From NCBI RefSeq assembly GCF_022788655.1, contig NZ_CP084951.1:2604001-2668000 (forward strand): a stretch of 64,000 nucleotides of DNA, read 5' to 3'. Source of the DNA: Sulfitobacter indolifex (GTDB lineage Bacteria > Pseudomonadota > Alphaproteobacteria > Rhodobacterales > Rhodobacteraceae). This document shows positions 27,939-48,298 of this stretch, in pieces. The translations under genes were made by a program, and so were the position numbers. How positions within the stretch are numbered: position 1 is the stretch's first letter; each line of letters opens with the position of its first letter. A model generated the notes under the pieces. That model did no database searches, was not told the DNA's origin, and was given only the letters and a program-made list of their open reading frames with translations.

Positions 27939-28745
27939 CTAGACCCGCCAGCTCAACACCCGCCGCTCAATCGCGGCAACGACCGAAGACACCGCGACGC
28001 CGAGCAGCGACAGGATCACCACACCCGCAAACAAACGCTCCAGATCATAAAGGCTCCCGGCCTGCAGGATATACGCCCCGATGCCATATTCCGCGCCCAG
28101 CATCTCTGCCGCGACCAGCAGAATGATTGCAATCGTCAGCGAAATCCGCAGCCCCGAAAGGATCCCCGGCATCGCGCCGGGCACCACGATCTTCGACACG
28201 ATCGACCACCAGCCAAGGCCAAAGCTTTGCCCCATACGGATCAGCACCCGGTCCACATTGTCGACCGCCGCATAGGTGGCGACCACCGTGGGCGTGAAAG
28301 TGCCAAAGGCGATGAGGGCATATTTGCTCATTTCATCAATGCCAAACCAGATGACAAACAGCGGCAGCAGCGCGATCTTGGGAATGGGAAAGATTGCCGC
28401 CACCAAGGGCACCAGCCCCGCGCGGGCCAAGGAAAACAGCCCGATCAGCACGCCGATCCCGATCCCCAACGAAGCACCGATCAGCGCGCCTATGGCCAAA
28501 CGAGACAGCGAGGGGCCGAGATGTTTGAACAGCATCCCTGACTGGTAAAGCTCCTGAAACGTCAGCAACACATCGCTGGGCCGGGGCAGTGTCAGGGCCG
28601 AGATAAAGTCACTACGCGTGCCCCATTCTGCCAGCAGGATCAGCACGACAAAAACCGCAAGCCCTACGCCGCGCCGCGTGCCGGGCTGGAAACCACCGCC
28701 GCGAAACGTGACTTCGCGGGCGTTTGCATCTGTCATCTCAACCAT
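27939..28745 (-). CDS. NitT/TauT-type ABC transporter, permease
   Basis: 268 aa inner-membrane permease of the SsuC/TauC type with about six helices and the loop RMGQSFGLGWWSIVSKIVVPG near residues 165-185. The ATG at 28745 lies 7 bases after GGAG and overlaps the ATPase stop by 8 bases; ATG 28736 is an alternative. Last gene of the operon binding protein - antiporter - ATPase - permease. Substrates of the family are sulfonates, nitrate, taurine, riboflavin precursors or aromatic acids. Confidence 0.9.
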   Translation of the reverse strand: MVEMTDANAREVTFRGGGFQPGTRRGVGLAVFVVLILLAEWGTRSDFISALTLPRPSDVLLTFQELYQSGMLFKHLGPSLSRLAIGALIGASLGIGIGVLIGLFSLARAGLVPLVAAIFPIPKIALLPLFVIWFGIDEMSKYALIAFGTFTPTVVATYAAVDNVDRVLIRMGQSFGLGWWSIVSKIVVPGAMPGILSGLRISLTIAIILLVAAEMLGAEYGIGAYILQAGSLYDLERLFAGVVILSLLGVAVSSVVAAIERRVLSWRV

Positions 28746-29505
28746 CAATCAACTCCGCATCCGCCGCCGCGGCCTCATCGCGCATCAGCCCCCAAAGGTG
28801 CTGTTGCTGTGCCTCCAACACCGGGTCGCCATGGCGGCGCTCGGCCAGAGGCATGTCTAACTCCACCACTTCGCGAATCTCTCCCGGACGGCGCGAGAGC
28901 ACGACGATCTTATGCCCCAGCCGCACCGCTTCGGCGAGGTTGTGGGTCACATAAACCGCCGTGAAAGGCTGCCGCGTCCAGAGTGCCACGAGGTCATCCA
29001 TCAAGAGCTCGCGGGTCTGACTGTCGAGCGCGCTCAACGGCTCGTCCATCAGCATCACCGCCGGGTTGACCGCCAGTGCACGGGCAATCGCCACACGCTG
29101 CTTCATCCCGCCCGAGAGTTGCTTGGGCAGGGCATCGGCAAAATCGGTGAGCTTGGTCCGCGCCAGCACGTCGGCGATGATCGCCTCGCGCTGCGCCTTG
29201 CCCAGCCCATGATCCTCTAGCACCAGCGCCACATTGCCGCGCACCGTGCGCCACGGCAGCAGGGCAAAATCCTGAAAGATGTAAGTGAGCGGGTTCAGAC
29301 AGCCCTCAGGCGCATCGCCCATTTGCAGCACGCGGCCTTCGCTGGGCCGTTCCAACCCGCCGAGCATGCGCAGTAGGGTGGATTTGCCACAGCCCGAGGG
29401 ACCGACGATGCAAACGATCTGACCAGAGGGAATGTCGAGCGTGATGTCACGCAGCACTTGGCTGTCGCCATAGTAATGGCTGACGGAGGAAAGCTTGAGG
29501 TCCAT
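28738..29505 (-). CDS. NitT/TauT-type ABC transporter, ATP-binding protein
   Basis: 255 aa ATPase. Walker A is GPSGCGKSTLL, the Q-loop is FQDFALLPW, the signature is LSGGMKQR and Walker B is [12 protein letters not shown]: the full SsuB/TauB set. ATG 29505 follows AAGGG at normal spacing; the TTG at 29523 is less likely. It lies 81 bases downstream of the Na+/H+ antiporter gene in the same transcription unit. Confidence 0.92.
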   Translation of the reverse strand: MDLKLSSVSHYYGDSQVLRDITLDIPSGQIVCIVGPSGCGKSTLLRMLGGLERPSEGRVLQMGDAPEGCLNPLTYIFQDFALLPWRTVRGNVALVLEDHGLGKAQREAIIADVLARTKLTDFADALPKQLSGGMKQRVAIARALAVNPAVMLMDEPLSALDSQTRELLMDDLVALWTRQPFTAVYVTHNLAEAVRLGHKIVVLSRRPGEIREVVELDMPLAERRHGDPVLEAQQQHLWGLMRDEAAAADAELIDG

Positions 29506-29586
29506 GCCGCCCTTTTCCGGCAAAATCGCCCCACGCGCAATGTGCGATCCGCGCGCCGGGGCAGTCGCCCTCCGCCAGTGGCGCGC

Positions 29587-30846
29587 TTAAGGCTGCTCAC
29601 CCTCTTTACTGCTTAGCCCATCCACCGCGATTCCGGCGGTAAAGCCATGCACCAAGGTCGAGACGAGGATCGCAAACCCCACCATTGCCCAAAGCGGCTC
29701 TTCATCCAGAAACTCCACCTTCCCCGCCGCATAGGCCAGATAGTAGATCGAACCGATCCCGCGGATGCCATAAAGTGCCACGACCCAGCGGGGGCGCGTC
29801 TCAAGGGGCGATCCCAAAAGCGCCACCCACCCCGCCAAGGGGCGCACGACAAAGATCAATGCCAGCACGATCACCGCGCCGGCGAGGGTCAGATCGGCCA
29901 GCAAGGTGGGCAGCACCGCGCCGATTGCCACCAGCAGCAGCGCCGTCAGCGCGTGTTCAACGGCAGCGGTAAAGTCATGCAAACGGCGGTGGAATTCGTG
30001 GTCTGCCTCAACCCGCCGGATCACCAGACCGGCCACTGCCACGGCGATAAAGCCATAGCCTTCGACCAGTTCCGTGGTGCCATAGCACAAAAGCACGCCC
30101 GCCAAGGCCACCACGCCCGAGGAAGTCTCGGCCAAAACCGCCTTACGCGGCACGACGAACAAGACCTGCCCCAAGGCCCAACCGCCCGCCGCACCCATCG
30201 CGGTGCCGACAGCGATGCGCCAAAAGACATCGCGCGCCAACCACTCGACGCCCCAAGACGCCGGGGCCAGCCCTTCTGCCGCGACCAATATCCCAAGGTA
30301 GACAAAGGGGAACGCCAAACCGTCGTTCAGCGCCGCCTCGGTCGTCAGGGCAAAGCGCACAGGATGCTCGCCCCCCTCTTGCGGCGGGCCAACCTGCACG
30401 TCCGCGGCCAGCACGGGATCGGTCGGGGCCATCACTGCGCCCAGCAAAATGGCCCCGGCAGCGGTCATCCCGGCAAACGCCCAGCCCATCACCGCGACCG
30501 ATAGGATCGTCAGCGGCATCGTCAGGGCCAAAAGCCGCGCCGTAGGCCCCCAGCGGGACCAGTCCGAAAGCTTGTCAATCCGCAGCCCCGTCGCAAACAG
30601 AGCAACGATCACGCAAAGCTCCGATACGATCTCCCAAGGGAAAGGATACGCGCGTGGGTCAGGAAAAGCTGGCATGCCGGGGACAAGCGCAAAGATCCCC
30701 ATGCCTAAAAGGATCAAAAGCCCCGATGCCGCGGGCTCACGTCGGCTGACGAAGCGCGGCAGCCAATGGGCGAGGATCACGACCATCCCGACGGCTCCCA
30801 AAGCGATATGATAGCCGTCTAGGGCGAAAAAGCTGCCGTCGCTCAC
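29587..30846 (-). CDS. Na+/H+ antiporter, CPA1/NhaP type
   Basis: 419 aa with about 12-13 membrane helices and no cytoplasmic regulatory domain. ALTTEAALNDGLAFPFVYLG carries the conserved Asn-Asp pair of the ion site, and MAPTDPVLAADVQVG is the unwound-helix TDP motif. Start is GTG at 30846. Oddly, it lies between the binding-protein gene and the ATPase gene of an ABC transporter. It may offset proton or sodium changes linked to the transport or catabolism encoded here. Exchanged ion is inferred from family. Confidence 0.88.
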   Translation of the reverse strand: MSDGSFFALDGYHIALGAVGMVVILAHWLPRFVSRREPAASGLLILLGMGIFALVPGMPAFPDPRAYPFPWEIVSELCVIVALFATGLRIDKLSDWSRWGPTARLLALTMPLTILSVAVMGWAFAGMTAAGAILLGAVMAPTDPVLAADVQVGPPQEGGEHPVRFALTTEAALNDGLAFPFVYLGILVAAEGLAPASWGVEWLARDVFWRIAVGTAMGAAGGWALGQVLFVVPRKAVLAETSSGVVALAGVLLCYGTTELVEGYGFIAVAVAGLVIRRVEADHEFHRRLHDFTAAVEHALTALLLVAIGAVLPTLLADLTLAGAVIVLALIFVVRPLAGWVALLGSPLETRPRWVVALYGIRGIGSIYYLAYAAGKVEFLDEEPLWAMVGFAILVSTLVHGFTAGIAVDGLSSKEGEQP

Positions 30847-31021: not shown

Positions 31022-32041
31022 TTAGCTGCCCATCGTCTCAACATAAGAAGTGTCGATCAGCGTCTCTAGCGTGATGTCGGCATCAACCAGCCCTTCGGAC
31101 TGGAACCACTCCAACTGATCCCGCACCGAAGCAACATTGAGCATCGCACCTTCGTTCAGGCGCATGGTGCCATTGATGATCGACGGCGCTGCCTTGTCGC
31201 GCGGGCGGTCGGTGTAGACGTATTTATGGATCAGATCGACCATTTCATCCACGCCCGCATCACCGCCGTCCTTGGCGATCATCGCGGCGTTATAATCGGC
31301 CACGCCCTTGGAATACCCGGCGAGGAAATTCTTGGTCATTTCCTGCTCATCACTGGCGTTCTTGGTCGAGGTAAAGACCGTGGTGACCTGATAATCCGGC
31401 AGATAAGTCGCCACATCGCCGATGATATGCACGGCACCTGAGCCTGCCAGCGGCTTGGCGATATGCGGCACGATGGACCAGGCATCAATCTGCCCCGTCT
31501 TCAGCGCGCCAATGACTGCGCCGACCTTTTGCAGCGGTTTGAATTTGAGGCTGATCCCCTCGGCCGCGGCCATTTTGGCGCCCATATAGTGGAAGGACGA
31601 CCCGGCCTGCGTCATGCCAAAGCTTTTGCCATCCAGCATGCCCGGTTCGGTAATCCCCGCCTGATAGGCGGCGTCGGAGACAAGAAACTTCTGCCCGTCG
31701 ATGCCCTGCTCTTCTTGCAACGCGCCACCGATAACCTTGACCGCGCCCTTTTGTGCCAAGGACACCAGACCGCCGGAGATCGCCGTTACAGCATAGTCCA
31801 CATCTCCGCTGGCAATCGCCACGGCCATCGGTTGCGCCGCCTCAAAGAACCGCAGCTCAACGTCGAGCCCGGCCTCTTTGAAATAGTCCCGCTCAAAAGC
31901 GACAAAGCTGCCCGCGTGGCTGGTGAAACGCAGCGCGCCCACGGTGATCTTGCGGTTCTGCGCCAGTGCCGGAGCAGCCAGCCCCACGGCCGTTGCAGCG
32001 CCCAAAGTTGCGATGGCCTGACGGCGGTTGAATAGGGTCAT
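31022..32041 (-). CDS. NitT/TauT-type ABC transporter, periplasmic binding protein
   Basis: 339 aa. A signal peptide with NRRQAIATLGAAT, possibly Tat-dependent (Arg-Arg present, motif imperfect), ends at ALAQ. The mature protein begins KITVGALRFTSHAGSFVA and has the family pattern FFEAAQPMAVAIASGDVDYA. The ATG at 32041 has a near-perfect GGAGGAG site 7 bases upstream, so the longer frame is discarded. Divergent from the reductive dehalogenase gene, 123 bases apart, which makes a halogenated aromatic acid or sulfonate a reasonable but unproven ligand. Confidence 0.88.
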   Translation of the reverse strand: MTLFNRRQAIATLGAATAVGLAAPALAQNRKITVGALRFTSHAGSFVAFERDYFKEAGLDVELRFFEAAQPMAVAIASGDVDYAVTAISGGLVSLAQKGAVKVIGGALQEEQGIDGQKFLVSDAAYQAGITEPGMLDGKSFGMTQAGSSFHYMGAKMAAAEGISLKFKPLQKVGAVIGALKTGQIDAWSIVPHIAKPLAGSGAVHIIGDVATYLPDYQVTTVFTSTKNASDEQEMTKNFLAGYSKGVADYNAAMIAKDGGDAGVDEMVDLIHKYVYTDRPRDKAAPSIINGTMRLNEGAMLNVASVRDQLEWFQSEGLVDADITLETLIDTSYVETMGS

Positions 32042-32164
32042 GATTTCACTCCTCCAATTTTGCCGCAGCATGGTCGGCGGCTATGCCGAAAGTCAAGCGA
32101 GAGCGCCTTTTGTGGCTGCGGGCGGGGGCTGGTATATCAATTCAAAGCGTGGCATCGATTTGCC

Positions 32165-35100
32165 ATGAAGCTCTTCTCATCCAAGACCCGCCCCATGCAC
32201 CTCGGCCCCTTTCCTTTGGAGCGGCTGCGCCGGTTGCATGCACCCCATGACCAACTGCCGGATGCGCCCATGCCGGTACTGCGTTTTGAGCGGCCCGAGA
32301 CGCCCCAAAGCATCTGCAACGCCATGGCCCCCTTCCAAGCGATGATGGACGTGCTGCGCGACGGGCCGGTCAACACGGCGGGCGCGGTGATCCCCGAAAG
32401 CCCGGTGGAACGGGCCAATCACCTTAAATCATTTGGTTATTACAACGACGCTTCGATGATGGGCGTCTGCGCCCTACCGCAGAAGGCGCATCTTGCCACG
32501 CCCCGGCGCAGCGAAGGCACCGCGCAACTGGCCGAATTTCTTCGCAGCCGTCAGACCAAGACGCTCGCCGCTGGGGTGGATGTCATCATGGCGAACCTGC
32601 GCGATGCGGTGGACGCGCCCGAGACCTCGATCGACGCTCACAGCCACGCGCTGGTGCTTCTCACCGCCCACCCCCGCGACCCGCGCGAAGATGAGCCGGG
32701 CAGCGATTGGATCATGGACGCCCAAGCCGAGCGCGCCTGCCTGCGCGGGACTGAAAATGCCACCGTGCTGGCCGAATATATCCGCCAGTTGGGCTTCGCG
32801 GCCAAGGTGCATTCAGGCACCACCTCTGATGTGAACCTCGGCCAATTGGCCGTGGCGGCGGGGCTGGCGGTTTGGGAAGACGGCACACTGCAAGCGCCGT
32901 GGATCGGGCCGCGCTTCGGGCTTGCTGTGGTGACGACTGACATGGAGCTTGCGCCCGATATGCCGCTCGCCCCGCTCTCCGAACAACCGTGGTCGGTGAT
33001 CAAAGGTCCGCACTGGCAGCTTGGCACCCACGGCGGCGTCAGCGCCCGCGATGTCGATCCTTATGCACGGCGCGACTATGCCGCAGGCCCGCACCCATTC
33101 GAGACGCTTAAACGGGTAGAAGAGCCGACCACCTATATCGACGCGCCGAATGTGCCGCGCGTGCCAAAGCGCGGCGATCTTTTCGCACGCGGGCAGTTCG
33201 GCGACATGGGGCCAAAGGTGCAGAACGCGATGAAAGGCGGCCACCATGTGGTGAAATCCGCCCCCTCCGCCGCGCAGCGCCGCTTGCTGGGCGCGCTGAT
33301 CTTGCTGCAAGATGGCCCGGTGAACGACGCCGCGCCCGCAATGACGGACAGCGCCCGCAATGCCGCGAACCTCAAGGCGGCAAGCTATTTCCTCGGCGCC
33401 GATGCCGCGGGCCTCTCGGCCTGCCCCGATTGGACATGGTACAGCCATGACGCCACCGGCACCCCGATCACCCCGCCGCATGACCAAGCGCTGAGCCTAA
33501 TCATTGACCAAGGGTTCGACACGATGGAGGGGTCTTCGGGCGACGACTGGATTGCCGTCTCGCAATCCATGCGCGCCTATCTGCGGTTTTCCATGTTGGG
33601 TGGCGTGATGGCCCAGCATCTGCGCAACCTCGGCCATTCCGCCAAAGCGCATACGGTGATGGACGGCGATGTGCTGCAACCGCCGCTGCTGTTGCTCGCG
33701 GGCTTGGGCGAAGTCTCTCGCATCGGCGAAGTGATCCTCAATCCCTTCCTCGGCCCGCGCCTGAAATCTGGCGTGGTCAGCACGACACTGCCTGTGACCC
33801 ACGACAGACCCATCGACTTCGGCCTGCAAAAATTCTGCGAAGCCTGCAACAAATGCGCCCGCGAATGCCCCTCGGGCGCGATCACCGCTGGGCCAAAACG
33901 CATGTTCAATGGCTATGAAATCTGGAAATCCGACAGCCAGAAATGCGCCACCTACAGGATCACCAATCAAGGCGGCGCGATGTGCGGACGCTGCATGAAG
34001 ACCTGCCCGTGGAACCTCGAAGGGCTGTTCGCCGAAGCGCCCTTCCGTTGGGCCGCGTCCAACATCCCCGCCGCCGCACCGCTGCTGGCCAAGCTGGACG
34101 ACAAGGTCGGCAAGGGCCGCCTTAACCCGGTGAAAAAATGGTGGTGGGACATCGAGCGCAAGCCCTCGGGCCAATTCGACACCCCTGCCCAGCCCGTTAA
34201 CGCCCGTGACCTACAGCCCGATCTTGACCTCAAGTTCAAAGACCAAACGCTCGCCGTTTACCCCGCTCCGCTGGCCCCGCACCCTTGGCCCTACCCCGAT
34301 CCGATGAACCGCGAAGCCGGGATTGCCGCCCATGCCGCGCTGCTGAGCGCCGATGAACACCGCCGCAAAACGGCCGCTGGCGACACCGATCACCTCCATC
34401 TCTACAAGGTCGGCAGCGACACCCCCGTGCTCGACCTGCGGATCACCGAGGTGACCCGGCTGAACGCGACCACCGCCCTTTATGACATTGCCCACCCCGA
34501 AGGCCACGACCTGCCCGAATGGACCGCAGGCGCGCATCTCGATCTGGTCGTCGCGCCCGAATTCCTGCGCCCCTATTCGCTGCTGGGCGACCCGAGTGAC
34601 CGCAAACGCTACCGCATCGCGGTATTGCGCGAAGACGCGGGCCGGGGCGGCTCGGCGTTGCTGCACCGGGTCTTTACCAAAGGGCGGCGGATCTTTGTTG
34701 GCAAGCCGGTGAACCACTTTGAACTGGTCGAGGACGCGCCGCATAGCCTGCTCATGGGCGGCGGCATCGGCATCACGCCAATGATCGCCTTTGCCTATCG
34801 ATTGCACGCCCTTGGGCGACCCTTTGACCTGCATTATTCCGCCTCTACCCGCGAAGCCGCGGCCTTTGCCGAGGAACTTGCGCAAGCGCCTTGGGCCGAC
34901 CGGGTACACCTGCATATCTCGTCCGAGAACACCCGCGCCGACCTATCTGCAATCATGGAACGCGCAGCACCGGGCACCCATGTCTACACCTGCGGGGCGG
35001 ATGCTTACATGCAAGCGGTCATGGCCGCTGCCGAGGCTGCGGGCATCCCCGAGGACGCCCGGCATCTGGAGTATTTTTCGACCCCCGAAGTGCCGGATTA

Positions 35101-35371
35101 CGTCAATCACCCCTTCACGCTGAAACTCACCTCGGGCCGCGAAATTCCCGTCTCGAAGGACGAGACCGCCGCCGACGCCCTCATTGCGGCAGGCGTGGCA
35201 GTGGACCTAAAATGCAGCGATGGCATCTGCGGCGTCTGCAAATGCGGACTGCGCGGTGGCGAAGTCGAACACCGCGACTTCGTGCTCTCGGCCAAGCAGC
35301 GCGAGGGCGCAATCATCCTGTGCCAATCCCGCGCGGCCAAGCCGGATGGCGTGCTGGAGGTCGATCTCTAG
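32165..35371 (+). CDS. Self-sufficient reductive dehalogenase (RdhA fused to flavin/2Fe-2S reductase)
   Basis: 1068 aa, cytoplasmic: no Tat or other signal. Residues ~40-300 and ~355-555 are two RdhA-like halves that repeat each other (DGPVN, ANLK and LGPRL landmarks). Residues ~556-625 hold two 4Fe-4S motifs: FCEACNKCARECP, then a Cys 12 residues before CGRCMKTCP. From ~748 comes a phthalate-dioxygenase-reductase-like unit: FMN-binding RPYSL, nucleotide-binding GGGIGITPM, and a plant-type 2Fe-2S site CSDGICGVCKCG near 1017. The same architecture is known for BhbA of Comamonas, related to NpRdhA. It should remove halogen from an aromatic using cobalamin and NAD(P)H. ATG 32165 lacks a clear ribosome binding site; ATG 32195 is possible. 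Confidence 0.9.
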   Translation: MKLFSSKTRPMHLGPFPLERLRRLHAPHDQLPDAPMPVLRFERPETPQSICNAMAPFQAMMDVLRDGPVNTAGAVIPESPVERANHLKSFGYYNDASMMGVCALPQKAHLATPRRSEGTAQLAEFLRSRQTKTLAAGVDVIMANLRDAVDAPETSIDAHSHALVLLTAHPRDPREDEPGSDWIMDAQAERACLRGTENATVLAEYIRQLGFAAKVHSGTTSDVNLGQLAVAAGLAVWEDGTLQAPWIGPRFGLAVVTTDMELAPDMPLAPLSEQPWSVIKGPHWQLGTHGGVSARDVDPYARRDYAAGPHPFETLKRVEEPTTYIDAPNVPRVPKRGDLFARGQFGDMGPKVQNAMKGGHHVVKSAPSAAQRRLLGALILLQDGPVNDAAPAMTDSARNAANLKAASYFLGADAAGLSACPDWTWYSHDATGTPITPPHDQALSLIIDQGFDTMEGSSGDDWIAVSQSMRAYLRFSMLGGVMAQHLRNLGHSAKAHTVMDGDVLQPPLLLLAGLGEVSRIGEVILNPFLGPRLKSGVVSTTLPVTHDRPIDFGLQKFCEACNKCARECPSGAITAGPKRMFNGYEIWKSDSQKCATYRITNQGGAMCGRCMKTCPWNLEGLFAEAPFRWAASNIPAAAPLLAKLDDKVGKGRLNPVKKWWWDIERKPSGQFDTPAQPVNARDLQPDLDLKFKDQTLAVYPAPLAPHPWPYPDPMNREAGIAAHAALLSADEHRRKTAAGDTDHLHLYKVGSDTPVLDLRITEVTRLNATTALYDIAHPEGHDLPEWTAGAHLDLVVAPEFLRPYSLLGDPSDRKRYRIAVLREDAGRGGSALLHRVFTKGRRIFVGKPVNHFELVEDAPHSLLMGGGIGITPMIAFAYRLHALGRPFDLHYSASTREAAAFAEELAQAPWADRVHLHISSENTRADLSAIMERAAPGTHVYTCGADAYMQAVMAAAEAAGIPEDARHLEYFSTPEVPDYVNHPFTLKLTSGREIPVSKDETAADALIAAGVAVDLKCSDGICGVCKCGLRGGEVEHRDFVLSAKQREGAIILCQSRAAKPDGVLEVDL

Positions 35372-35437: not shown

Positions 35438-36127
35438 ATGACCTTCGACCGTTCGATCAAGATCGCCCCCTCCATCCTCGCCGCTGATTTCGCCAATTTT
35501 GGTGCCGAATGCGAAGCCATTGAGGCCCAAGGCGCGGACTGGGTGCATGTGGACGTGATGGACGGGCATTTTGTGCCCAATATCACCTTCGGCCCTGCCA
35601 TGTGCGCGGCGATCCGGCCCCATATCAAGGGCGTGATGGACGTGCATCTGATGATCTCGCCCGTCGATCCCTATATCGACGCTTTCGCCAAGGCCGGTGC
35701 CGATGTGATCACCGCCCATGTTGAGGCTGGCCCCCACATCCACCGCACCCTGCAAGCGATCCGTGGCGCAGGCGTAAAAGCGGGCGTGGCGCTGAATCCC
35801 GGCACGCCAGCGAGCGCCGTGGCAGACATCCTCGACATGACCGATCTGATCTGTGTCATGACCGTGAACCCCGGCTTCGGCGGGCAAAAGTTCATCGATA
35901 TGACTGCCAAGATCCGCACCCTGCGCGAGATGATCGGCGACCGCCCAATCCACATCGAAATCGACGGCGGCGTTGACCCCAAGACCGCGCCGCTGGTGGC
36001 GCAGGCCGGGGCCGATGTGCTGGTGGCAGGCTCGGCGGCCTTTAAGGGTGGTTCGGTCAGCAATCCCGCGCCTTACGGCGAGAACATCCGCGCGATCCGC
36101 GCCGCTGCCGAAGGCACCTACGCTTAA
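35438..36127 (+). CDS. rpe: Ribulose-phosphate 3-epimerase
   Basis: 229 aa TIM-barrel enzyme that interconverts ribulose 5-phosphate and xylulose 5-phosphate in the pentose phosphate and Calvin cycles. Metal-site motifs are all present: HVDVMDGHFVPN near residue 33, MTVNPGFGGQKF near 145 and IEIDGGV near 177. Full family length. It starts 66 bases after the dehalogenase stop and is followed by a terminator. It is a housekeeping enzyme and its place beside the dehalogenase looks accidental. Confidence 0.95.
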   Translation: MTFDRSIKIAPSILAADFANFGAECEAIEAQGADWVHVDVMDGHFVPNITFGPAMCAAIRPHIKGVMDVHLMISPVDPYIDAFAKAGADVITAHVEAGPHIHRTLQAIRGAGVKAGVALNPGTPASAVADILDMTDLICVMTVNPGFGGQKFIDMTAKIRTLREMIGDRPIHIEIDGGVDPKTAPLVAQAGADVLVAGSAAFKGGSVSNPAPYGENIRAIRAAAEGTYA

Positions 36128-36137
36128 AAGCACCTCG

Positions 36138-36175
36138 GGGCGCGGAGCAAACCGCGCCCTCCCCCCCCCCTTTTT
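36138..36175 (+). terminator. Terminator after rpe
   Basis: GGGCGCGG / CCGCGCCC is a perfect 8-bp stem with loop AGCAAA. After it come a T, ten C and five T (36160-36175). It lies between convergent rpe and the acyl-CoA ligase gene and probably serves rpe. The C10 run is unusual and prone to slippage. Confidence 0.6.
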
Positions 36176-37673
36176 ACGTCAGTTGATCGGCGAAGGCCGT
36201 CAGGAGACGATGCTTGAGGATCTTGCCCGTGGGCGCTGCGGGCAAGTCCGTCGCGATGATGATCTGCGCGGGGCGCTTGTAGCCGGTCAGCCGTTCTTTG
36301 ACAAAGCTGCGCAACTCTTCAACCGTCACGTCGTCGCCGGGGGCTACCTGCACAAAGGCCAGCACTTCCTCATCCCCGTCCCGCTGCCGTCCGACCACCG
36401 CCGATTGCACCACACGCGGGTGATCATTCAGCGCGGCCTCGACTTCGGGCGGATAGACGTTAAAGCCGCCGTGGATGATCAGCTCTTTGCTGCGCCCTAG
36501 AATATGCAGCCGCCCATCCTCATCAAGCTTGCCCAGATCGCCGGTGTGCAGCCACCCTTCGGCGTCGATCGTTTTGTCGGTCTCTGTCGGGTTGCGGTAG
36601 TAGCCCTTCATCACATGCGGGCCGCGCACCAGCACCTCACCTTCGCCCGCGCCATTGCCGCCGGGGGCTTGGTCGTCGATCTTGCATTCGGTGCCGGGTG
36701 TGACCGGCCCGACAGAGGTGTCGGGCGAACCGAGCGCGTTGCTGGTCGCCGACGCGCCGGAACAGGTTTCGGTCATGCCAAAGCCGTTTTGCAGGGGCAG
36801 TTCATAGAATCCTTCCGCTTTGCGCTTCCACGCAGGATCCAGCGGCGCACCTCCCGAAGAAACATAGCGCAAGGTCGGGCTCGCAAGCTTCGCCATGCCG
36901 CCTTCGCGGGAATACTGCATTACCAGCGCATGCATCTGCGGCACCGCCGGCAGGATCGTGACATCTTCGTGGGTCGCGGCATGAAGCTTGGCTGCGGAGA
37001 AACGCGACTCCTGCCGCACTTTCGCACCCGCGCTCACTGCCGCCATCAACACAGAAACCAGCCCGAAAACATGGGTCATCGGCAAGACGCCGTAGACCAC
37101 ATCGCCCGGCACCATGTGCCGCAGGTCCGCCGAGGCCCGCGCGCCGAAGCGCAGGTTCTGATGGGTCAGCATCACGCCCTTGGGGTCGCCCGTGGTGCCG
37201 GTGGTATAGAGCAGTACAGCCACGTCATGCAGATCAGCGTCCGGGCTGCTGGGCAGCGGCGTGGCAAGGTGCAAGCTGCCAAAAGCGCCGGAGACCTCAC
37301 GCGCGTTCAGCCGCGCCGCATGAGCCGCCGCGTCGGGGGAGACATCACAGGTCAGCAGCACCGCTGCGGGGGTGGCATGGTCGATGATGCGGGTGACTTC
37401 GGCTTCGGTCTGCCGGGCGTTCACGGGGATCGCCACCGCGTCCAACTCCCAACAGGCATAGAGCGAGGCAACCGCCGCGACACAGTTTTCCACCATCAAA
37501 AGCACGCGGTCGCCCGCCTGCACACCCGCGCTGCGCAGCTCAGCGGCCAAAGCCACCCGCGCGCGGTCCAGATCGGCGTAGTTCCAATCGGCACCGCTGG
37601 CGTCACTCAGCGCAGGCGCGTCTGGGCGGGTCGCCAATTGCTCCGCTAGAAAATCCTGTACCCTGGCGTTCAT
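36174..37673 (-). CDS. Acyl-CoA ligase (AMP-forming)
   Basis: 499 aa adenylate-forming enzyme that activates a carboxylic acid with ATP and CoA. The P-loop is YTTGTTGDPKGV, the A5 region is NGFGMTETCSG, the hinge is HTGDLGKLDEDGRLHILGRSK, and the C-terminal catalytic lysine is in PTGKILKH. Last gene of the long beta-oxidation operon, 54 bases after the enoyl-CoA hydratase gene. By analogy to pimA it would activate a dicarboxylate or ring-derived acid brought in by the TRAP system. Exact substrate not deducible. Confidence 0.9.
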   Translation of the reverse strand: MNARVQDFLAEQLATRPDAPALSDASGADWNYADLDRARVALAAELRSAGVQAGDRVLLMVENCVAAVASLYACWELDAVAIPVNARQTEAEVTRIIDHATPAAVLLTCDVSPDAAAHAARLNAREVSGAFGSLHLATPLPSSPDADLHDVAVLLYTTGTTGDPKGVMLTHQNLRFGARASADLRHMVPGDVVYGVLPMTHVFGLVSVLMAAVSAGAKVRQESRFSAAKLHAATHEDVTILPAVPQMHALVMQYSREGGMAKLASPTLRYVSSGGAPLDPAWKRKAEGFYELPLQNGFGMTETCSGASATSNALGSPDTSVGPVTPGTECKIDDQAPGGNGAGEGEVLVRGPHVMKGYYRNPTETDKTIDAEGWLHTGDLGKLDEDGRLHILGRSKELIIHGGFNVYPPEVEAALNDHPRVVQSAVVGRQRDGDEEVLAFVQVAPGDDVTVEELRSFVKERLTGYKRPAQIIIATDLPAAPTGKILKHRLLTAFADQLT

Positions 37674-37727
37674 GGGTGTCTCCTCCTGCCTAAAAGCGCT
37701 ACCCCTCCCCGGGTGGCGCTGCCCGGT

Positions 37728-38495
37728 CTAAAACCGGGGCTTACGTTTTTCCAAAAAGGCCGCGATCCCTTCGGCGGCCTCATCTCCGCCAGCAGCACGC
37801 GCCATAGCGTCGCGTTCGGCGTCAAGCTGATCGGCCTCGTTGGTTTCATAGGCTTGCGCCACCAACTGCCGGATCACACCCTGCGCCGCACGCGGGCCAG
37901 CGGCCAACGTATCGGCCAGCATCATCGCTTCGTCCAAGGCTTTGCCATTGGCGCAGATGCGGTTCACCGCGCCCAGTTCAGCAAAGCGCATGGCCATGAC
38001 GGGGCGGCCCAAAAGGCACATCTCTGCCGCTAGCGGGCGCGGCAAAAGCCGGGCGAGCGACGCGGTAAGCCCCGCATCCGGCACCAAGCCAGCTTTGACA
38101 TAGGCGGCGGTAAACTGCGCCTCTTCGCAGGCCACGATCATATCGCAAGCCAGCGCCAACGAGAGCCCCGCCCCGGCAGCGCCCCCTTCAATGGCCGCGA
38201 TGATGGGCACCGGGCAGGCGCGCATGGCGCGGACCAGATCATGTAGCGCATCGACCCGTTCGCGGCGCACCTCCTCGGTGAGCTTGCGCCGCTCGATCAG
38301 CACGTTGAGGTCGCCCCCCGCGCAAAAGAACCGCCCCTCAGACGTCAGGATCACCGCACGAATGCGCGGCTCCTCGGCAAGGGTCATGGCTTCGGCGATT
38401 GCCTCGTAAAGCGCAGGCGTCAGCGCGCCGCGTTTCTCGGCGTTGCCGTTCCAGACGATCAGCCGGTCGCCCCGGTCTTCGATCCGCGCACTCAT
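37728..38495 (-). CDS. Enoyl-CoA hydratase/isomerase family protein
   Basis: 255 aa crotonase-fold enzyme. The oxyanion-hole segments are FFCAGGDLNVL and EGGAAGAGLSLALACD. The first catalytic glutamate position of true hydratases reads Ala/Gly here; the C-terminal FLEKRKPRF is close to the group labelled oxepin-CoA hydrolase, alternative type. So isomerase or hydrolase activity is as likely as hydration. Overlaps the thioesterase stop by 4 bases (ATGA), within the beta-oxidation operon. Confidence 0.85.
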   Translation of the reverse strand: MSARIEDRGDRLIVWNGNAEKRGALTPALYEAIAEAMTLAEEPRIRAVILTSEGRFFCAGGDLNVLIERRKLTEEVRRERVDALHDLVRAMRACPVPIIAAIEGGAAGAGLSLALACDMIVACEEAQFTAAYVKAGLVPDAGLTASLARLLPRPLAAEMCLLGRPVMAMRFAELGAVNRICANGKALDEAMMLADTLAAGPRAAQGVIRQLVAQAYETNEADQLDAERDAMARAAGGDEAAEGIAAFLEKRKPRF

Positions 38496-38899
38496 GTTTT
38501 CGCCCTTTTGAAAACGCCCGTGGCCCGCGACAGCAGCTTGCCTTCGGCGTCGTGCAACTGCGCCTCGGCATAGAGGATTTTATACCCCCCACCTGTCACG
38601 CGCCCTGTCGCGACAACCTGCCCATCGCGCACCGCCAAAATGTAATCGGTGGTCAGCGACAGGGTCAGCATTGGCACGAAGGGCCCGCTCATCGCGCAGT
38701 GCCGCGCGCAGGCAAAGCCTGTGGCCACATCCAAGAGCAGCGTATGCAAACCACCGTGCAGCACACCTGAGACGTTCAGGTGCTGCGGACCAAGGTCGAG
38801 GGTTACGCGGGTGCTGCCATCGGGGTTCGACAGATCGGGATGAAACCCGATGAGCTGCTGAACCCCGCTGGTCGGTGCCTCATGCGGCGGATAGTGCAA
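38492..38899 (-). CDS. PaaI-family hotdog thioesterase
   Basis: 135 aa. The hotdog fold is seen in HLNVSGVLHGGLHTLLLDVATGFA and LTLSLTTDYILAV; the HGG motif is that of PaaI/YbgC-type acyl-CoA thioesterases. The frame is open further upstream, but that part lies in the acyl-CoA dehydrogenase gene. The first reasonable start is TTG at 38899, with GGAG 7 bases before it. This gives an ordinary family length and a 20-base overlap with the previous gene. Likely role: releasing CoA from dead-end acyl-CoA intermediates. Confidence 0.8.
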   Translation of the reverse strand: MHYPPHEAPTSGVQQLIGFHPDLSNPDGSTRVTLDLGPQHLNVSGVLHGGLHTLLLDVATGFACARHCAMSGPFVPMLTLSLTTDYILAVRDGQVVATGRVTGGGYKILYAEAQLHDAEGKLLSRATGVFKRAKT

Positions 38900-40013
38900 T
38901 GAACCGCTCCAAATGATGATCAACGTCGCCAAAGCGGTGGTCCGCCATGGTGATGCGTTTGGCGATATGGGCCAGCTCATATTCCTGCGTCATGGCAATC
39001 CCGCCATGCATCTGGATCGTGTCCTCGGAGACCAGGCGGCCTACGCGACCCATCAGGTTCTTGGCGGCAGAGACATGGCGCTCGCGGCTGGCGCGGTCGT
39101 CGGCCAGATGCCCTGCGGCGTTGATGACGGCAGAGCGGGCCTGTTCGAGGTCGATGAGCAGGTCCGACATGCGGTGCGCCAAGGCTTGGAAGCTGCCGAT
39201 GGGGCGGCCAAACTGCTTGCGCGTTCCAAGGTACTCGCGGGTCAGCGTGCAGGCGGTTTCCATGGCACCGAGCGTCTCCGCGCAGAGCGCGGTGGTCGCG
39301 ACTGCGGTGCGGGCTTCAATGGCGTCGAAAGCCTTGCCCGCGGCACCCAGACGGGCACTTTCGGGCAGGGTCACATCGTCCAGCGTCACTTCGGCGGCAC
39401 GGCCCCCGGCCAACAGCGCGTAGCCCGTGACGGTCAGCCCTTTGGCGTCGGCGGGCACGAGGAACAGAGAGATGCCTGCCTCGTCACCGGCCTCCCCGCT
39501 TTCGCGGGCAGAGACGACGATCATGTCGGCAGCCTCAGCATTCGCCACCACGGCCTTGCGGCCATTCAGCACGATGTCGCTGCCATTCTGCGCGGCGGTG
39601 GTGGTGACGCGATTGAGGTCATAACGGCTGCCCGGCTCGCCATGCGCAAAAGCCAGTTGCAACGCGCCGCCGATCAGCGCTTCGACATGCTCTTGCTGCG
39701 TCTCATTGCCGAGGTCAGCGATCAAACCGCCCGCCAGCACAGCGGAATCGAGCAGCGGCTCGACCACGCCAGCGCGGCCCAGTTCTTCGAACACGGTGGT
39801 CACGTCAAAGCCAGCGCCGCCAAAGCCGCCCTGCTCTTCGGTGAAGAGCGCGCCGATCACGCCCAGTTCGGCCAAGCCGTTCCAGATGTCAGCAGAGAAG
39901 CCTGCATCGCTTTCCAAGATGCCATTGCGCGTGGCGGTATCGTATTTGTCGCGCAGGAAACGGCGCAGGCTGTCTTGCAGCATCTGGCGTTCTTCGGTCA
40001 GGTCGAAGTTCAT
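38880..40013 (-). CDS. Acyl-CoA dehydrogenase, PimD-like small subunit
   Basis: 377 aa flavoprotein. It opens MNFDLTEERQMLQDSLRRFL and ends with the acyl-CoA dehydrogenase C-terminal helices (QMHGGIAMTQEYELAHIAKR). It resembles the pimeloyl-CoA dehydrogenase small subunit and lies immediately after a second, different acyl-CoA dehydrogenase, overlapping by 4 bases. The pair probably forms a heteromer, as in dicarboxylate and steroid side-chain oxidation. Electrons would pass to ETF, which is not encoded here. Confidence 0.88.
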   Translation of the reverse strand: MNFDLTEERQMLQDSLRRFLRDKYDTATRNGILESDAGFSADIWNGLAELGVIGALFTEEQGGFGGAGFDVTTVFEELGRAGVVEPLLDSAVLAGGLIADLGNETQQEHVEALIGGALQLAFAHGEPGSRYDLNRVTTTAAQNGSDIVLNGRKAVVANAEAADMIVVSARESGEAGDEAGISLFLVPADAKGLTVTGYALLAGGRAAEVTLDDVTLPESARLGAAGKAFDAIEARTAVATTALCAETLGAMETACTLTREYLGTRKQFGRPIGSFQALAHRMSDLLIDLEQARSAVINAAGHLADDRASRERHVSAAKNLMGRVGRLVSEDTIQMHGGIAMTQEYELAHIAKRITMADHRFGDVDHHLERFIALSAA

Positions 40014-41209
40014 TTTGCACCTCCCAGCATGGTCTTGGCAATGATCTGTCGCTGGATCTCATTCGAGCCGCCAAAGATCGACAGTTTGCGGTTGTTGAAA
40101 TACTGCGCGGCCACTGGCCCCGCTTCATTCGGGTCAGGCAGCGCGTCGTTGCTGCCCGCGACCGCTTCCGAGGCGAAGGGCATCGCATAGACACCCGCCG
40201 CACGGCGCGCGAGGTCATTGATCTCTTGCCGGATGATTGTGCCCTTGACCTTGAGCATGGAGCTTTCCACCCCCGGTGCCTGCCCTGCGGCGGCCTTGGA
40301 GATGATGCGCAAATTGGTTGTCGCCATCGCCATCAGGTCGATCTCGGCCTGAGCAACGCGTGCGGCGAAATGCGGGTTCTCGATCAGCGGGCGGCCCCCA
40401 GCCATTTCGGATTTGGCGATGCGTTTAACCGCCGAAAGACCAGCCTGAGAGAACCCAACACCCGCGATGTTGGTGCGCTCATGGGTCAGCAGGTACTTGG
40501 CGTAGGTCCAGCCCTTGTTCTCTTCGCCAACAAGGTTCTCGGCAGGCACCTTCACATCGTCAAAGAACACCTCGTTCACCTCAGCGCCGCCATCCAAAAG
40601 GATGATCGGGCGCACGGTGATGCCGGGGGTGTCCATGTCGATCAAGAGGAAGGAAATCCCTTCCTGCTGCTTCACGTCCTTGTCGGTGCGCACGAGGCAG
40701 AAGATCATGTTGGCGTGCTGGCCGAGGGTGGTCCACGTCTTCTGACCATTGACGATGTAGTGGTCGCCGTCCTTGACCGCCGCGCATTTCAGCGAGGCGA
40801 GGTCCGACCCGGCGCCCGGCTCGGAATAGCCCTGACACCACCAGTCTTCGCCCGACAGAATGCGCGGCAGCCAGTAGTCCTGCTGCTCTTTCGAGCCGAA
40901 TTTTTGCAGCACCGGCGCCAGCATCGACAGGCCAAAAGGCACGATGCGCGGCGCGTGATGGGCGGCGGCCTCTTCTTCGAAGATATGGCGCTGCACGGCG
41001 TTCCACGCGGCCCCGCCGAACTCCTTGGGCCAGTTCGTTGCCAGCCAGCTCTGATCGTTCAGGATCGCGTGCCAGCGCTCGTGGCCTTCCTTGCCCAGTT
41101 CTTCGCCGCGCTTGACCTTGTCAGACAGGTCTTTGGGCAGTTTCTCGGCCAGAAAGGCCCGCACGTCTTCGCGAAAGGCGCGTTCTTCGTCAGAATAGCT
41201 CAGGTCCAT
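40010..41209 (-). CDS. Acyl-CoA dehydrogenase, PimC-like large subunit
   Basis: 399 aa flavoprotein. WWCQGYSEPGAGSDLASL is the FAD/substrate signature and LSIFGGSNEIQRQIIAKTML the C-terminal signature. Overall sequence pattern is that of pimeloyl-CoA dehydrogenase large subunits. ATG 41209 follows AGGGGG; the 9 extra codons upstream overlap the thiolase stop. Forms a tandem pair with the next gene. Predicted to introduce the alpha,beta double bond in a dicarboxyl- or ring-derived acyl-CoA. Confidence 0.9.
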   Translation of the reverse strand: MDLSYSDEERAFREDVRAFLAEKLPKDLSDKVKRGEELGKEGHERWHAILNDQSWLATNWPKEFGGAAWNAVQRHIFEEEAAAHHAPRIVPFGLSMLAPVLQKFGSKEQQDYWLPRILSGEDWWCQGYSEPGAGSDLASLKCAAVKDGDHYIVNGQKTWTTLGQHANMIFCLVRTDKDVKQQEGISFLLIDMDTPGITVRPIILLDGGAEVNEVFFDDVKVPAENLVGEENKGWTYAKYLLTHERTNIAGVGFSQAGLSAVKRIAKSEMAGGRPLIENPHFAARVAQAEIDLMAMATTNLRIISKAAAGQAPGVESSMLKVKGTIIRQEINDLARRAAGVYAMPFASEAVAGSNDALPDPNEAGPVAAQYFNNRKLSIFGGSNEIQRQIIAKTMLGGAK

Positions 41210-41222
41210 GTCGGCCCCCTTT

Positions 41223-42398
41223 TCAGTAGATTTCAAAGAGGCCAGCCGCCCCCATGCCGCCGCCGATACACATCGTCACGACACCCAGCTTTGCGCCCCG
41301 GCGGTTGCCTTCGCGCAGGAGGTGGCCCGTCATCCGCGCGCCGGTCATGCCGAAGGGGTGACCGATGGCGATGGAGCCGCCGTTGACGTTGCATTTGTCG
41401 GGGTCGATCCCCAGCTTGTCGCGACAGTAAAGCGCTTGGCTGGCGAAAGCTTCGTTCAATTCCCACAGGTCGATGTCATTGACGGTCAGGCCATGGCGCT
41501 CCAGCAGACGCGGCACGGCAAAGACCGGGCCGATGCCCATCTCGTCCGGCTCGCAACCTGCGACGGCGAAGCCTTTGAACGCGCCCATGGCTTGCAGACC
41601 TTTCTGCTCAGCCTCTTTGCTGTCCATCAAGACCAATGCGGCGGCCCCATCAGAAAGCTGGCTGGCGTTGCCTGCGGTGATGAAAGCACCATCGCCGCGC
41701 ACGGGCGTCAGGCCTGCGAGACCTTCCAGCGTGGTTGTGGGGCGGTTGCATTCGTCGCGGTCCACGGTGACTTCGCGGGTGGAAATCTCTTTGGTTTCCT
41801 TGTCCTGCACGCCCATTGTGGTTTGCATCGGCGCGATCTCATCGTCGAAGAGGCCGGCTTCCTGCGCGGCGGCGATCAGCTGTTGGCTGCGCAACCCGTA
41901 AGCGTCTTGGTCCTCTCGGGAGATGCCATAGCGTTTCGCCACGATGTCGGCGGTGTCGATCATCGCCATATAGACGTCGGGCTTATGCTCCATCAGCCAC
42001 GCCTCTTTCACCGATTTGGCGTCGGGCTGCACCATCGAGATGCTTTCGACCCCGCCTGCAACCATCGGGCCTGCGCCCTCTTGGCAGATGGCGTTGGCGG
42101 CCATGGCGACGGTTTGCAGGCCGGACGAACAGAAGCGGTTCACGGTCACACCAGACGCGGTGACCGGCAGGCCCGCACGCAGGGCGATCTGCCGCGCGAT
42201 GTTCGAGCCCGTAGCCCCTTCGGGGTAGCCACAGCCGATCATCACATCTTCGATGGCCGACGGATCGACGCCCGAGCGTTTGACCGCTTCGGCAACGACA
42301 TGGCCGCCCATGGTGGCGCCGTGGGTCATGTTGAATGACCCGCGGAAGGATTTGGCCAGCCCGGTGCGGACGGCAGAGACGATGACAGCCTGTTTCAT
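41223..42398 (-). CDS. Acetyl-CoA acyltransferase (thiolase)
   Basis: 391 aa thiolase. The nucleophilic cysteine is in [16 protein letters not shown] (near residue 89), [13 protein letters not shown] is the middle signature, and the second cysteine is in [16 protein letters not shown] near the end, with the catalytic histidine in [11 protein letters not shown]. Cleaves a 3-oxoacyl-CoA with CoA. The start overlaps the stop of the FadJ-type gene by 4 bases. Functions with the multifunctional enzyme upstream; equivalent to pimB in content. Confidence 0.93.
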
Positions 42399-44491
42399 TT
42401 GGCAGCTTCCTTGTTCAGATCATCAAATGTGCGGTTGGTCTTGACCAAATCGACCAGCAGCGGCGCTGGTTTCCAGAACCACGGGTCTTTCTCGGCAAAG
42501 CCTTCGATCGCGGCGAGGACATTGGGCAGGCCCTGAATGTCGGCCCATTTCATCGGGCCGCCCCAGTAGCGCGGGAAACCGTAGCCAAAGAGCAGCGTCA
42601 TATCGATGTCGAGCGGGCGTTTGGCGATGCCCTCTTCGAGCACCTTGGCGGCCTCGTTGACCATAGCGGACATGTAGCGGCGCACGATCTCTGCATCGGT
42701 AAATTCACGCGGGGTGATGCCGCGCTCTTTCTGCTCTTCTTCGATCAGGCGGGTGATTTCAGGGTTCGGCGTGCCGCCGCGTTTGCCTTTTTCGTAGATG
42801 TAATAGCCTTGGCCGGTCTTCTGGCCAAAGTGTCCCTGCTCACACAGACGGTCGATATAGGTCGGCACCCGCTCTTCGGGGTGGCGCGTGGCGGCCTTGC
42901 GCTTGCGCGTGGCCCAGCCGATGTCGAGCCCGGCAAGGTCGGCCACCGCGAAGGGACCCATGGCAAAGCCGAATTTCTCAAGCGCCGCGTCGATCTTATA
43001 GGGGCTGGCGCCGTCGAGCACCATGTGGTCCGCGGCCGTGCGGTATGTGGCGAGGATGCGGTTGCCGATGAAGCCGTCGCAGACGCCCGCGCGGACGCTG
43101 ATCTTGCCCAGAGCCTTGCCGAGCGCAAAGCCGGTGGCGACAACATCTGGTGCGGTTTTGTCGGCGACGACGACTTCAAGCAGTTTCATCACATGGGCAG
43201 GTGAGAAGAAGTGCAGCCCGATCACATCCGCGGGGCGCGAGGTGCTGTCGGCGATTTCGTCAACGTCCAGATAGGAGGTGTTAGAGGCCAGCACGCAGCC
43301 CGGTTTGCAGACGGCGTCAAGCTTGCCGAAGACCTGCTTTTTGACGTCCATGTCCTCGAACACGGCTTCGACAACGAGATCGACGTCCGACAGGCTGGCG
43401 TAATCGGTGGAAACTGTCAGCGCCTCGCCGGTCAGCGTGTCAAACTTGGCTTGGTCAATCTTGCCGCGCTTCAGCGCGCCTTGCAGATTGCCCGAAATGC
43501 GGTCGTGCGCGGCCTTAGCGGCCTCGTCCTTCATCTCAATCAGCACAACGTTGAAGCCCGACAGCAGCGCCGCCGTGGCGATCCCCGCACCCATCGTCCC
43601 GCCGCCGATTACGCCGATGGCTTTCAGCGTACGCGGCTCGACGCCTTTGAGTTCGGGCAGATTGCTAACGGCACGCTCAGAGAAGAACGCGTGGATCATG
43701 CCTTGGCGCTGGTCGGTGTTCATCAGTTCCGAGAAGATGCGGCGCTCGGCTTTCATGCCCTCTTCGAAGGGTTTTTCTACGCCAGCCTGCACGGCACGCA
43801 CGGCCTCGGCAGGGGAAATTTGGCCGCGGCCTTTTTTCAGCGTCGCCTCATAGGCAGCGTCCCAGTCGATGGGCGCAGGCGCAGGCATGTCGCAGATCGG
43901 GCGGCGCTCGGCACCGCTGTCGAGCAACTCGCGCACATAGGCCAGACCGACTTCTTGCGGATCGCCCTCTTCCACACGGTCGACGATGCCCATCTCAAGC
44001 GCCTGCGGTGCCTTGATGTGGCGGCCCGTTGTGATGGCATCCAGCGCGGGCTCAACGCCGATGAGACGCGGCAAACGCTGGGTGCCGCCTGCACCGGGGA
44101 TCAGGCCAAGGTGCACTTCGGGCAGGCCCACGCGGGCCGTTGGCTGAGCGATGCGGTAATGCGCCGAGAGTGCGACTTCGAGACCGCCGCCGAGGCTGAC
44201 GCCATGCATGGAGGCGACGACCAGAAGCGGCGAGGCTTCGATGCGGTTGCAGAGGTTCGGCAGATGCGGCTCCATCGGGGGCTTGCCGAATTCGGTGATG
44301 TCAGCGCCCGCGATAAAGGCACGGCCCTCGCCCACGATCATCACGGCGCGCACGCCCTCTTCGGCCTCGGCGCGGTCCATTCCCTCGGCTAGACCTTGCC
44401 GCACGGCTTGGCTCAGCGCGTTGACGGGCGGGTTTTCGATGCGCAGCACGACGATGTCGTCATGGCGGGAATAGGCAATCTTGTCGGTCAT
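42395..44491 (-). CDS. Multifunctional 3-hydroxyacyl-CoA dehydrogenase/enoyl-CoA hydratase (FadJ/PimF type)
   Basis: 698 aa. Residues ~1-190 are an enoyl-CoA hydratase domain with oxyanion motif [15 protein letters not shown] and the catalytic glutamates in [21 protein letters not shown]. From ~290 follows an NAD-binding domain ([18 protein letters not shown]), then the two dehydrogenase C-terminal domains with the catalytic His in [13 protein letters not shown]. It catalyses two successive beta-oxidation steps. It starts 17 bases after the IclR gene and overlaps thiolase by 4 bases. Confidence 0.93.
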
Positions 44492-44508
44492 TTTAGTAAC
44501 TCCTTGTT

Positions 44509-47167: not shown

Positions 47168-47192
47168 ATGCTGCCCCTCCCCAAGTTAGCGA

Positions 47193-48248: not shown

Positions 48249-48277
48249 GTAGGCTCCTCCCAGAGACTTGTTTCGCA

Positions 48278-48298
48278 ATGTGAACCATTGTTTCACAT
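48278..48298. promoter_or_regulatory. Palindrome upstream of TRAP/beta-oxidation operon, candidate IclR operator
   Basis: ATGTGAA-CCATTGT-TTCACAT is a perfect 7-bp inverted repeat, about 30 bases upstream of the DctP start codon. Its size and place in the leader fit a repressor site, and the only regulator gene in the operon is of the IclR family. Confidence 0.5.

Follow-up and report, generated by a model that had tools for sequence, protein, structure and literature searches.

The stretch analysed here, referred to as the window, comprises 64,000 nucleotides of the Sulfitobacter indolifex contig NZ_CP084951.1 (positions 2,604,001 to 2,668,000 of the forward strand). It carries, in one uninterrupted open frame, a gene of the reductive dehalogenase type (rdhA), which is the only one of its kind in this genome and lies between a divergent gene for a substrate-binding protein and the gene for ribulose-phosphate 3-epimerase (rpe). 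An alternative, longer frame starts from a TTG at position 32060; we prefer the ATG at 32165, because it matches the N-termini of the homologues and of NpRdhA, the RdhA of Nitratireductor pacificus. A preliminary description of the locus had claimed an RdhA-type core, two [4Fe-4S] motifs and a fused flavin mononucleotide (FMN)/NAD(P)H/[2Fe-2S] reductase in a single chain of 1068 residues with no signal for twin-arginine translocation (Tat), and our analysis recovered these elements.

The NCBIfam profile for reductive dehalogenases, TIGR02486, gave 194.4 bits for the protein, above its cut-off of 160.35, and the match consists of two stretches within the one frame, i.e. the cobalamin-binding module is duplicated. 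The better stretch coincides with the catalytic core in the second half of the chain, while the other lies inside the N-terminal half (Table 1). Among the solved structures, the best match was NpRdhA (4RAS, E 3e-158), which aligned to residues 1-105 and 157-745. Residues 106-156 thus align to nothing in NpRdhA, and their position would fit the insert that, together with a duplicated cobalamin-binding domain, is described for fusions of RdhA with a phthalate-dioxygenase-reductase (PDOR) in PMC10463259. The core is followed by two [4Fe-4S] motifs, C558xxC561xxC564xxxC568P and C594...C607xxC610xxxC614P, and Pfam found both the double 4Fe-4S domain and a 2Fe-2S domain (Fer2, residues 990-1057). 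The fused reductase was identified through the phthalate dioxygenase reductase 2PIA, which matched residues 757-1065 with an E-value of 1.6e-47; the P450 entries 6laa and 6kbh matched the same C-terminal part. This module contains the motif RPYS from residue 802, which we take to be the FMN motif, GGGIGITP from residue 865 and YTCG from residue 941, as well as the [2Fe-2S] cysteines C1017, C1022, C1025 and C1053. The N-terminus (MKLFSSKTRPMHLGPF), read by eye and without a signal predictor, showed no twin-arginine motif.

Table 1 Features of the rdhA locus in the window, and split rdhA genes in other genomes.
Feature	Position	Strand	Remarks
Predicted self-sufficient catabolic reductive dehalogenase, RdhA-PDOR fusion (rdhA)	32165..35371	+	1068 amino acids; ATG at 32165, stop codon ends at 35371
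N-terminal half, residues ~1-407 (approximate boundary)	32165..33385	+	first copy of the RdhA/cobalamin-binding module; holds the second TIGR02486 stretch
Second TIGR02486 stretch	32396-32965 (genome 2636396-2636965)		inside the N-terminal half
RdhA catalytic core, residues 441-649	33485..34111	+	best TIGR02486 stretch; holds Y472, K534 and R598
Y472	33578-33580
K534	33764-33766
R598	33956-33958
[4Fe-4S] cysteines, residues 558-614	33836..34006	+	C558, C561, C564, C568, C594, C607, C610, C614
Phthalate-dioxygenase-reductase-like module, residues 757-1065	34433..35359	+	2PIA match
ABC permease (TauC/SsuC-like)	27939..28748	-	no NCBIfam cut-off passed
ABC ATPase (SsuB/TauB-like)	28738..29523	-	no NCBIfam cut-off passed
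Potassium/proton-antiporter-like gene	29587-30846	-	between the genes for the substrate-binding protein and the ATPase
Divergent ABC substrate-binding protein (NMT1/SsuA-like)	31022..32071	-	93 bases from the rdhA start
Ribulose-phosphate 3-epimerase (rpe)	35438..36127	+	TIGR01163, 271.5 bits (cut-off 212.6); 66 bases downstream of rdhA
Split rdhA	G008:C1:888719-891921
Split rdhA	G014:C31:115046-118023
Split rdhA	G017:C4:98448-101649
Split rdhA	G159:C4:333239-336426
Split rdhA	G329:C1:2006484-2009686

A protein search returned at least 3049 homologues at E <= 0.001 among 7995 candidates scored, and together with the NpRdhA match this places the identity of the protein far beyond chance. The best 120 homologues share 65-95% identity over 87-100% of its length, and those with names belong mostly to Sulfitobacter, Ruegeria and other Roseobacter-group bacteria. 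An alternative assignment would be epoxyqueuosine reductase (QueG) or another non-dehalogenating cobalamin enzyme of class III, towards which a weak match to the QueG profile TIGR00276 points. However, this match reaches 20.9 bits against a cut-off of 200, the genome holds a separate QueG above cut-off (434.8 bits; C1:243533-244531), and the named dehalogenase residues discussed below are all kept. The protein is thus closer to RdhA than to QueG, which the preliminary description had named as a point to be checked; we rule out QueG itself and consider a non-dehalogenating enzyme of this class a practically negligible option. A respiratory RdhA is likewise not supported, as no Tat motif was seen by eye and gaps of 93 and 66 bases separate rdhA from unrelated neighbors, so that no rdhB lies beside it, in line with the preliminary description.

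To place the active site, we relied on residues F291, S422, M423, Y426, K488 and R552 of NpRdhA, which PMC10463259 lists as kept in JtRdhA, the homolog from Jhaorihella thermophila. In our alignment they correspond to F340, S468, M469, Y472, K534 and R598, the lysine column being marked by the K488Q variant structure 6zy0. The tyrosine, lysine and arginine that the preliminary description had singled out for inspection are therefore in place. When the S. indolifex protein was aligned with 44 of the 120 homologues listed, none of these six residues varied among the 45 sequences, nor did any of the eight [4Fe-4S] or the four [2Fe-2S] cysteines. An AlphaFold2 model built on this alignment reached a mean predicted local distance difference test (pLDDT) score of 74.3 and a predicted template-modelling score (pTM) of 0.67, a fair quality for which the shallow alignment is perhaps the cause. 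The first structural matches of the model were 14 NpRdhA chains with template-modelling (TM) scores of 0.86-0.87 by target length, followed by P450-fused and free proteins of the phthalate-dioxygenase-reductase type. The model thus supports an NpRdhA-type fold, as the comparison suggested in the preliminary description was meant to probe; its confidence is low at the clusters, so that it lends no support to pocket details and the cobalamin pocket cannot be judged residue by residue.

The protein of J. thermophila (P0090), which we took to be JtRdhA on the organism name, shares 67% identity with the S. indolifex protein over the full chain. Both proteins agree in domain order, length, the RdhA-PDOR fusion and the named active-site residues, and they fall into the same Roseobacter-type clade; they differ by their sequence divergence and in that a substrate range was measured for JtRdhA, whereas the S. 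indolifex protein is known from its sequence. In a tree of 27 rows, a 24-row clade (100/99) contains the latter, further Sulfitobacter rows and P0090; Aminobacter sp. SS-2016 comes next, and BhbA stands apart with the Nitratireductor sp. OM-1 protein. In a second tree of 45 rows the S. indolifex protein shares a clade of 43 rows with P0090 (100/100). Both trees were midpoint-rooted for drawing. BhbA from Comamonas sp. 7D-2 (WP_015585978) shows the same fusion, about 50% full-length identity and the same catalytic residues, but belongs to the separate clade. Its gene is carried, next to protocatechuate 4,5-dioxygenase genes, by plasmid pBHB, which was typed as conjugative, whereas the S. indolifex gene lies on a 3.27 Mb contig and no neighbors of the protocatechuate 4,5-dioxygenase type were found; the gene of Nitratireductor OM-1 is located near pobA. 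NpRdhA has the RdhA fold and the named residues as well, and its identity to the RdhA part is 37-39%, but it lacks the fused reductase and any counterpart of residues 106-156. A further marine Roseobacter enzyme, the debrominase Ros_A3X954, resembles the S. indolifex protein in that it has no Tat signal and reduces bromophenols, according to PMC13101508. That paper places its cluster motifs at 283-294 (CDICTKCADACP) and 337-345 (CAICMRVCP), and judging from these differing positions Ros_A3X954 appears to have a shorter RdhA part and to belong to another subfamily.

What the S. indolifex protein may do can be read from JtRdhA. According to PMC10463259, purified JtRdhA debrominates and deiodinates ortho-halophenols with NADPH and is active in air, its rate with 3-bromo-4-hydroxyphenylacetate reaches 99% of the best one, and Escherichia coli W equipped with JtRdhA grows on this compound. 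We conclude that the rdhA product is very probably a catabolic reductive dehalogenase of the JtRdhA type that is cytoplasmic, self-sufficient and driven by NAD(P)H, that debrominates or deiodinates phenols and that probably tolerates oxygen. Domain content, conserved residues, kinship and spread of the protein were established directly, whereas the same activity as that of JtRdhA is inferred by analogy. In kind, this is what the preliminary description had proposed, i.e. a self-sufficient cytoplasmic enzyme of the NpRdhA/BhbA type, with the use of NAD(P)H carried over from JtRdhA. Base-off binding of cobalamin and NADPH-dependent dehalogenation in air are likewise predicted from the 67% identical JtRdhA.

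In the mechanism we propose, the FMN of the C-terminal phthalate-dioxygenase-reductase-like module would accept a hydride from NAD(P)H, and single electrons would travel from there via the [2Fe-2S] and then the two [4Fe-4S] clusters to the second RdhA module and its base-off cobalamin. Its cobalt would then take off bromide or iodide ortho to the phenol hydroxyl. The putative proton donor is Tyr472, which Lys534 and Arg598 would tune. Both the order of the wiring and the proton donor are adopted from the work on JtRdhA and NpRdhA. The debrominated or deiodinated phenols would become usable by ordinary aerobic aromatic pathways, and candidate substrates are 3-bromo-4-hydroxybenzoate and 3-bromo-4-hydroxyphenylacetate. 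A dehalogenase for chlorophenols or chlorohydroxybenzoates would use the same parts, and NpRdhA does reduce chlorinated substrates according to PMC10463259. However, in the same paper JtRdhA, the closer relative, converted no chlorinated compound among those tested and was instead inhibited by them, competitive inhibition being measured for one; bromo- and iodophenols are hence the substrates to be expected by analogy. The six named active-site residues are identical in all three proteins and so are not decisive here, and we regard a chloro-specific role as very unlikely.

Several observations weigh against the dehalogenase assignment and its proposed role. In a six-frame search of the genome, the two TIGR02486 stretches scored 149.8 and 44.4 separately, neither of them above the cut-off alone, and weak matches to this profile, none above cut-off, were also present in 11 of 14 control genomes. 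The structural model is weak at the cluster region, where many residues between 569 and 618 have a pLDDT below 50. Moreover, the gene neighborhoods vary between genera and between the gene lineages of the genus, no halogen-related gene was found beside rdhA, and the listed matches of 18 distinct neighboring open reading frames (two of them without any match) include no ring-cleaving family. Finally, the different and shorter Roseobacter enzyme Ros_A3X954 is described as oxygen-sensitive in PMC13101508, which indicates that air tolerance is not universal among Roseobacter reductive dehalogenases.

With regard to the neighborhood itself, the divergent substrate-binding protein, the ATPase and the permease resemble parts of an ATP-binding cassette (ABC) transporter, and a partnership of the substrate-binding protein with the rdhA product is possible but unproven; rpe, which is conserved as a neighbor solely in the gene lineage of the S. 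indolifex copy, is probably unrelated in function. The N-terminus of the substrate-binding protein looks Tat-like by eye (NRRQAIATLG...). We compared 80 of 413 relatives found in a scan of genome contigs. Within the 17 loci of the Sulfitobacter type (L004-L020; 16 named Sulfitobacter and one Roseobacter sp.), a homologue of the substrate-binding protein lies up to five genes upstream of rdhA in eight and the ABC ATPase and permease genes upstream in ten, while rpe follows rdhA in 15, the other two loci ending before reaching it. Across the 80 loci, homologues of the substrate-binding protein and the permease within five genes were confined to the Sulfitobacter type, and general ABC ATPase homologues also occurred in L027, L037, L044, L063 and L082. 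A divergent LysR gene accompanies rdhA in 24 loci of the Ruegeria type and CoxMSL-like genes in about 22 loci, both named by eye from sequence, and many of the remaining loci share no neighbors. As a clue to the substrate, the neighborhood thus gave no common answer across the 80 loci.

Apart from the window, only the closely related loci L004, L005 and L016 have the antiporter-like gene at this spot among the loci compared, and the gene therefore looks like a recent insertion; in others, e.g. L006 and L007, the ABC genes stand side by side without it. On the other side of rdhA, a long block on the reverse strand (36174-48296) contains genes for an acyl-CoA ligase, enoyl-CoA hydratase-type proteins, acyl-CoA dehydrogenases, a thiolase, an IclR-type regulator and a tripartite ATP-independent periplasmic (TRAP) transporter, of which the thiolase and one dehydrogenase were named by eye. 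One of its genes (37728-38495) matched 'oxepin-CoA hydrolase, alternative type' with 358.4 against a cut-off of 300. On the megaplasmid of Ruegeria sp. TM1040 (L095), about 7 kb separate a gene for a type II haloacid dehalogenase (506-1195) from the one for the RdhA-PDOR enzyme.

We then considered which pathway might receive the dehalogenated products. The preliminary description had named a halogenated phenol or hydroxybenzoate as substrate. The halogenated phenol stands, as a bromo- or iodophenol by analogy, while chlorinated compounds are disfavored by JtRdhA and a hydroxybenzoate route is not supported by this genome, in which PobA found no match above cut-off (best 32.5 bits against 538.7) and PcaH no match at all, LigAB not having been sought. 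The genome does encode homogentisate dioxygenase (hmgA, 654.6 bits) with an adjoining fumarylacetoacetase (548.8 bits), the phenylacetyl-CoA epoxidase subunit PaaA (528.9 bits) and, as a marker of cobalamin synthesis, the cobalt chelatase CobN above cut-off.

The same chemistry could accordingly serve a particular substrate class, e.g. halogenated breakdown products of tyrosine that feed into homogentisate, or detoxification instead of carbon supply. Besides the presence of the two homogentisate enzymes and the lack of a PobA above cut-off and of PcaH, the rate of JtRdhA on 3-bromo-4-hydroxyphenylacetate favors such a role, as does the co-occurrence of genes among 295 genomes of the family, in which kinship was ignored throughout. 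Here, hmgA is present in 101 of 113 rdhA-positive genomes and in 101 of 182 others (p 2.8e-10), while the link of rdhA with pcaH is not clear (76/113 versus 105/182, p 0.11). However, rdhA also co-occurs with paaA (77/113 versus 64/182, p 5e-8), and the link with hmgA vanishes in paaA-positive genomes (73/77 with rdhA versus 58/64 without, p 0.51), whereas it holds in paaA-negative ones (28/36 versus 43/118, p 1.7e-5). Furthermore, rdhA and hmgA are about 377 kb apart on C1 and hence physically unlinked. These counts rest on 202 genomes with hmgA at E <= 0.001 (194 above cut-off), 181 with pcaH at E <= 1e-50 (216 at E <= 0.001; 180 above cut-off) and 141 with paaA (143 at E <= 0.001). As the link is unspecific and uncorrected for shared ancestry, we treat the co-occurrence as a lead only and not as proof, and a specialized role of this kind seems rather doubtful to us, though less so than a chloro-specific one.

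The 113 rdhA-positive genomes of the family were picked by hand from 139 matched ones. The 26 excluded comprise three with fragments only (G156, G220, G272) and 23 with matches to the reductase part only or listed with weak E-values; genomes with an RdhA-only gene (G094), a truncated gene (G162) or a split gene (G159, G329) were retained. Within the genus, an RdhA-type gene is present in 53 of 62 genomes, after removal of one (G053) from a tally of 54 because it matched by the reductase part only; three of the 53 genes are split (G008, G014, G017) and one is cut off (G042). The preliminary description had implied that such an enzyme is a rarity in an aerobic Roseobacter-type genome, which these numbers contradict, as does the characterization of a Roseobacter-group member in 2023. 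The legend of the tree in PMC10463259 already names proteins of Ruegeria pomeroyi and Tropicibacter. Taken together, the observation made in the preliminary description is confirmed and its interpretation partly supported, being mostly right in kind and wrong on the implied rarity, with the substrate unproven. Five genomes carry the gene as two pieces that overlap or adjoin each other (Table 1), and the longest open frame in locus L020 (S. noctilucae) has 903 codons only; the split genes may be sequencing errors, pseudogenes or true split genes.

By best segment, the nearest named relatives are from Sulfitobacter dubius (95%), S. maritimus (94%) and S. delicatus (92%). The 53 genes of the genus fall into 28 with 72-100% and 25 with 59-64% identity to the S. 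indolifex protein, the latter being less like it than the J. thermophila protein is. Twenty of these 25 (L098-L117) were included in the 45-row tree, where 19 group together in a separate clade (97/93), distinct from the Sulfitobacter clade of the S. indolifex protein (nine rows, 100/100), while the remaining one, from G054, groups with the J. thermophila protein. This second lineage sits at other chromosomal sites: within 4 kb of the 20 sampled genes neither rpe nor genes for the substrate-binding protein, the permease or the CoA ligase were found, and general ABC ATPase matches (35-40%) lie near six of them. The enzyme is thus kept nearly genus-wide, but not via simple descent of one copy, and transfer, replacement or the sorting of old duplicates are possible origins of the two lineages. 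We also considered a plasmid-borne or recently mobile copy in S. indolifex. Relatives were found on 8 of 72,556 plasmid records; a recent arrival is unlikely, because the gene lies on a contig of 3,271,523 bases, the nearest Sulfitobacter rows form one clade and rpe follows in nearly all loci of this type.

The enzyme is not new in kind, since one of this type from an aerobic Roseobacter is already in print with JtRdhA (2023), and by itself it adds little to the latter; its spread may matter more. RdhA-PDOR enzymes, which recur in Sulfitobacter with two or more gene lineages at different sites and in many marine Rhodobacteraceae, might act as a sink for natural bromo- and iodophenols in oxic settings. 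The products of these phenols, where PcaH is lacking, would flow into homogentisate in a salvage of halogenated tyrosine-type compounds and not into protocatechuate; as a whole, we hold this broader scenario to be unlikely. A Sulfitobacter genome without PcaH is a useful place to address the question of the native substrate. The debromination of phenols is a role usually assigned to anaerobes; provided that the genes described here are active, it could also be carried out in oxic water, by common aerobic marine bacteria.

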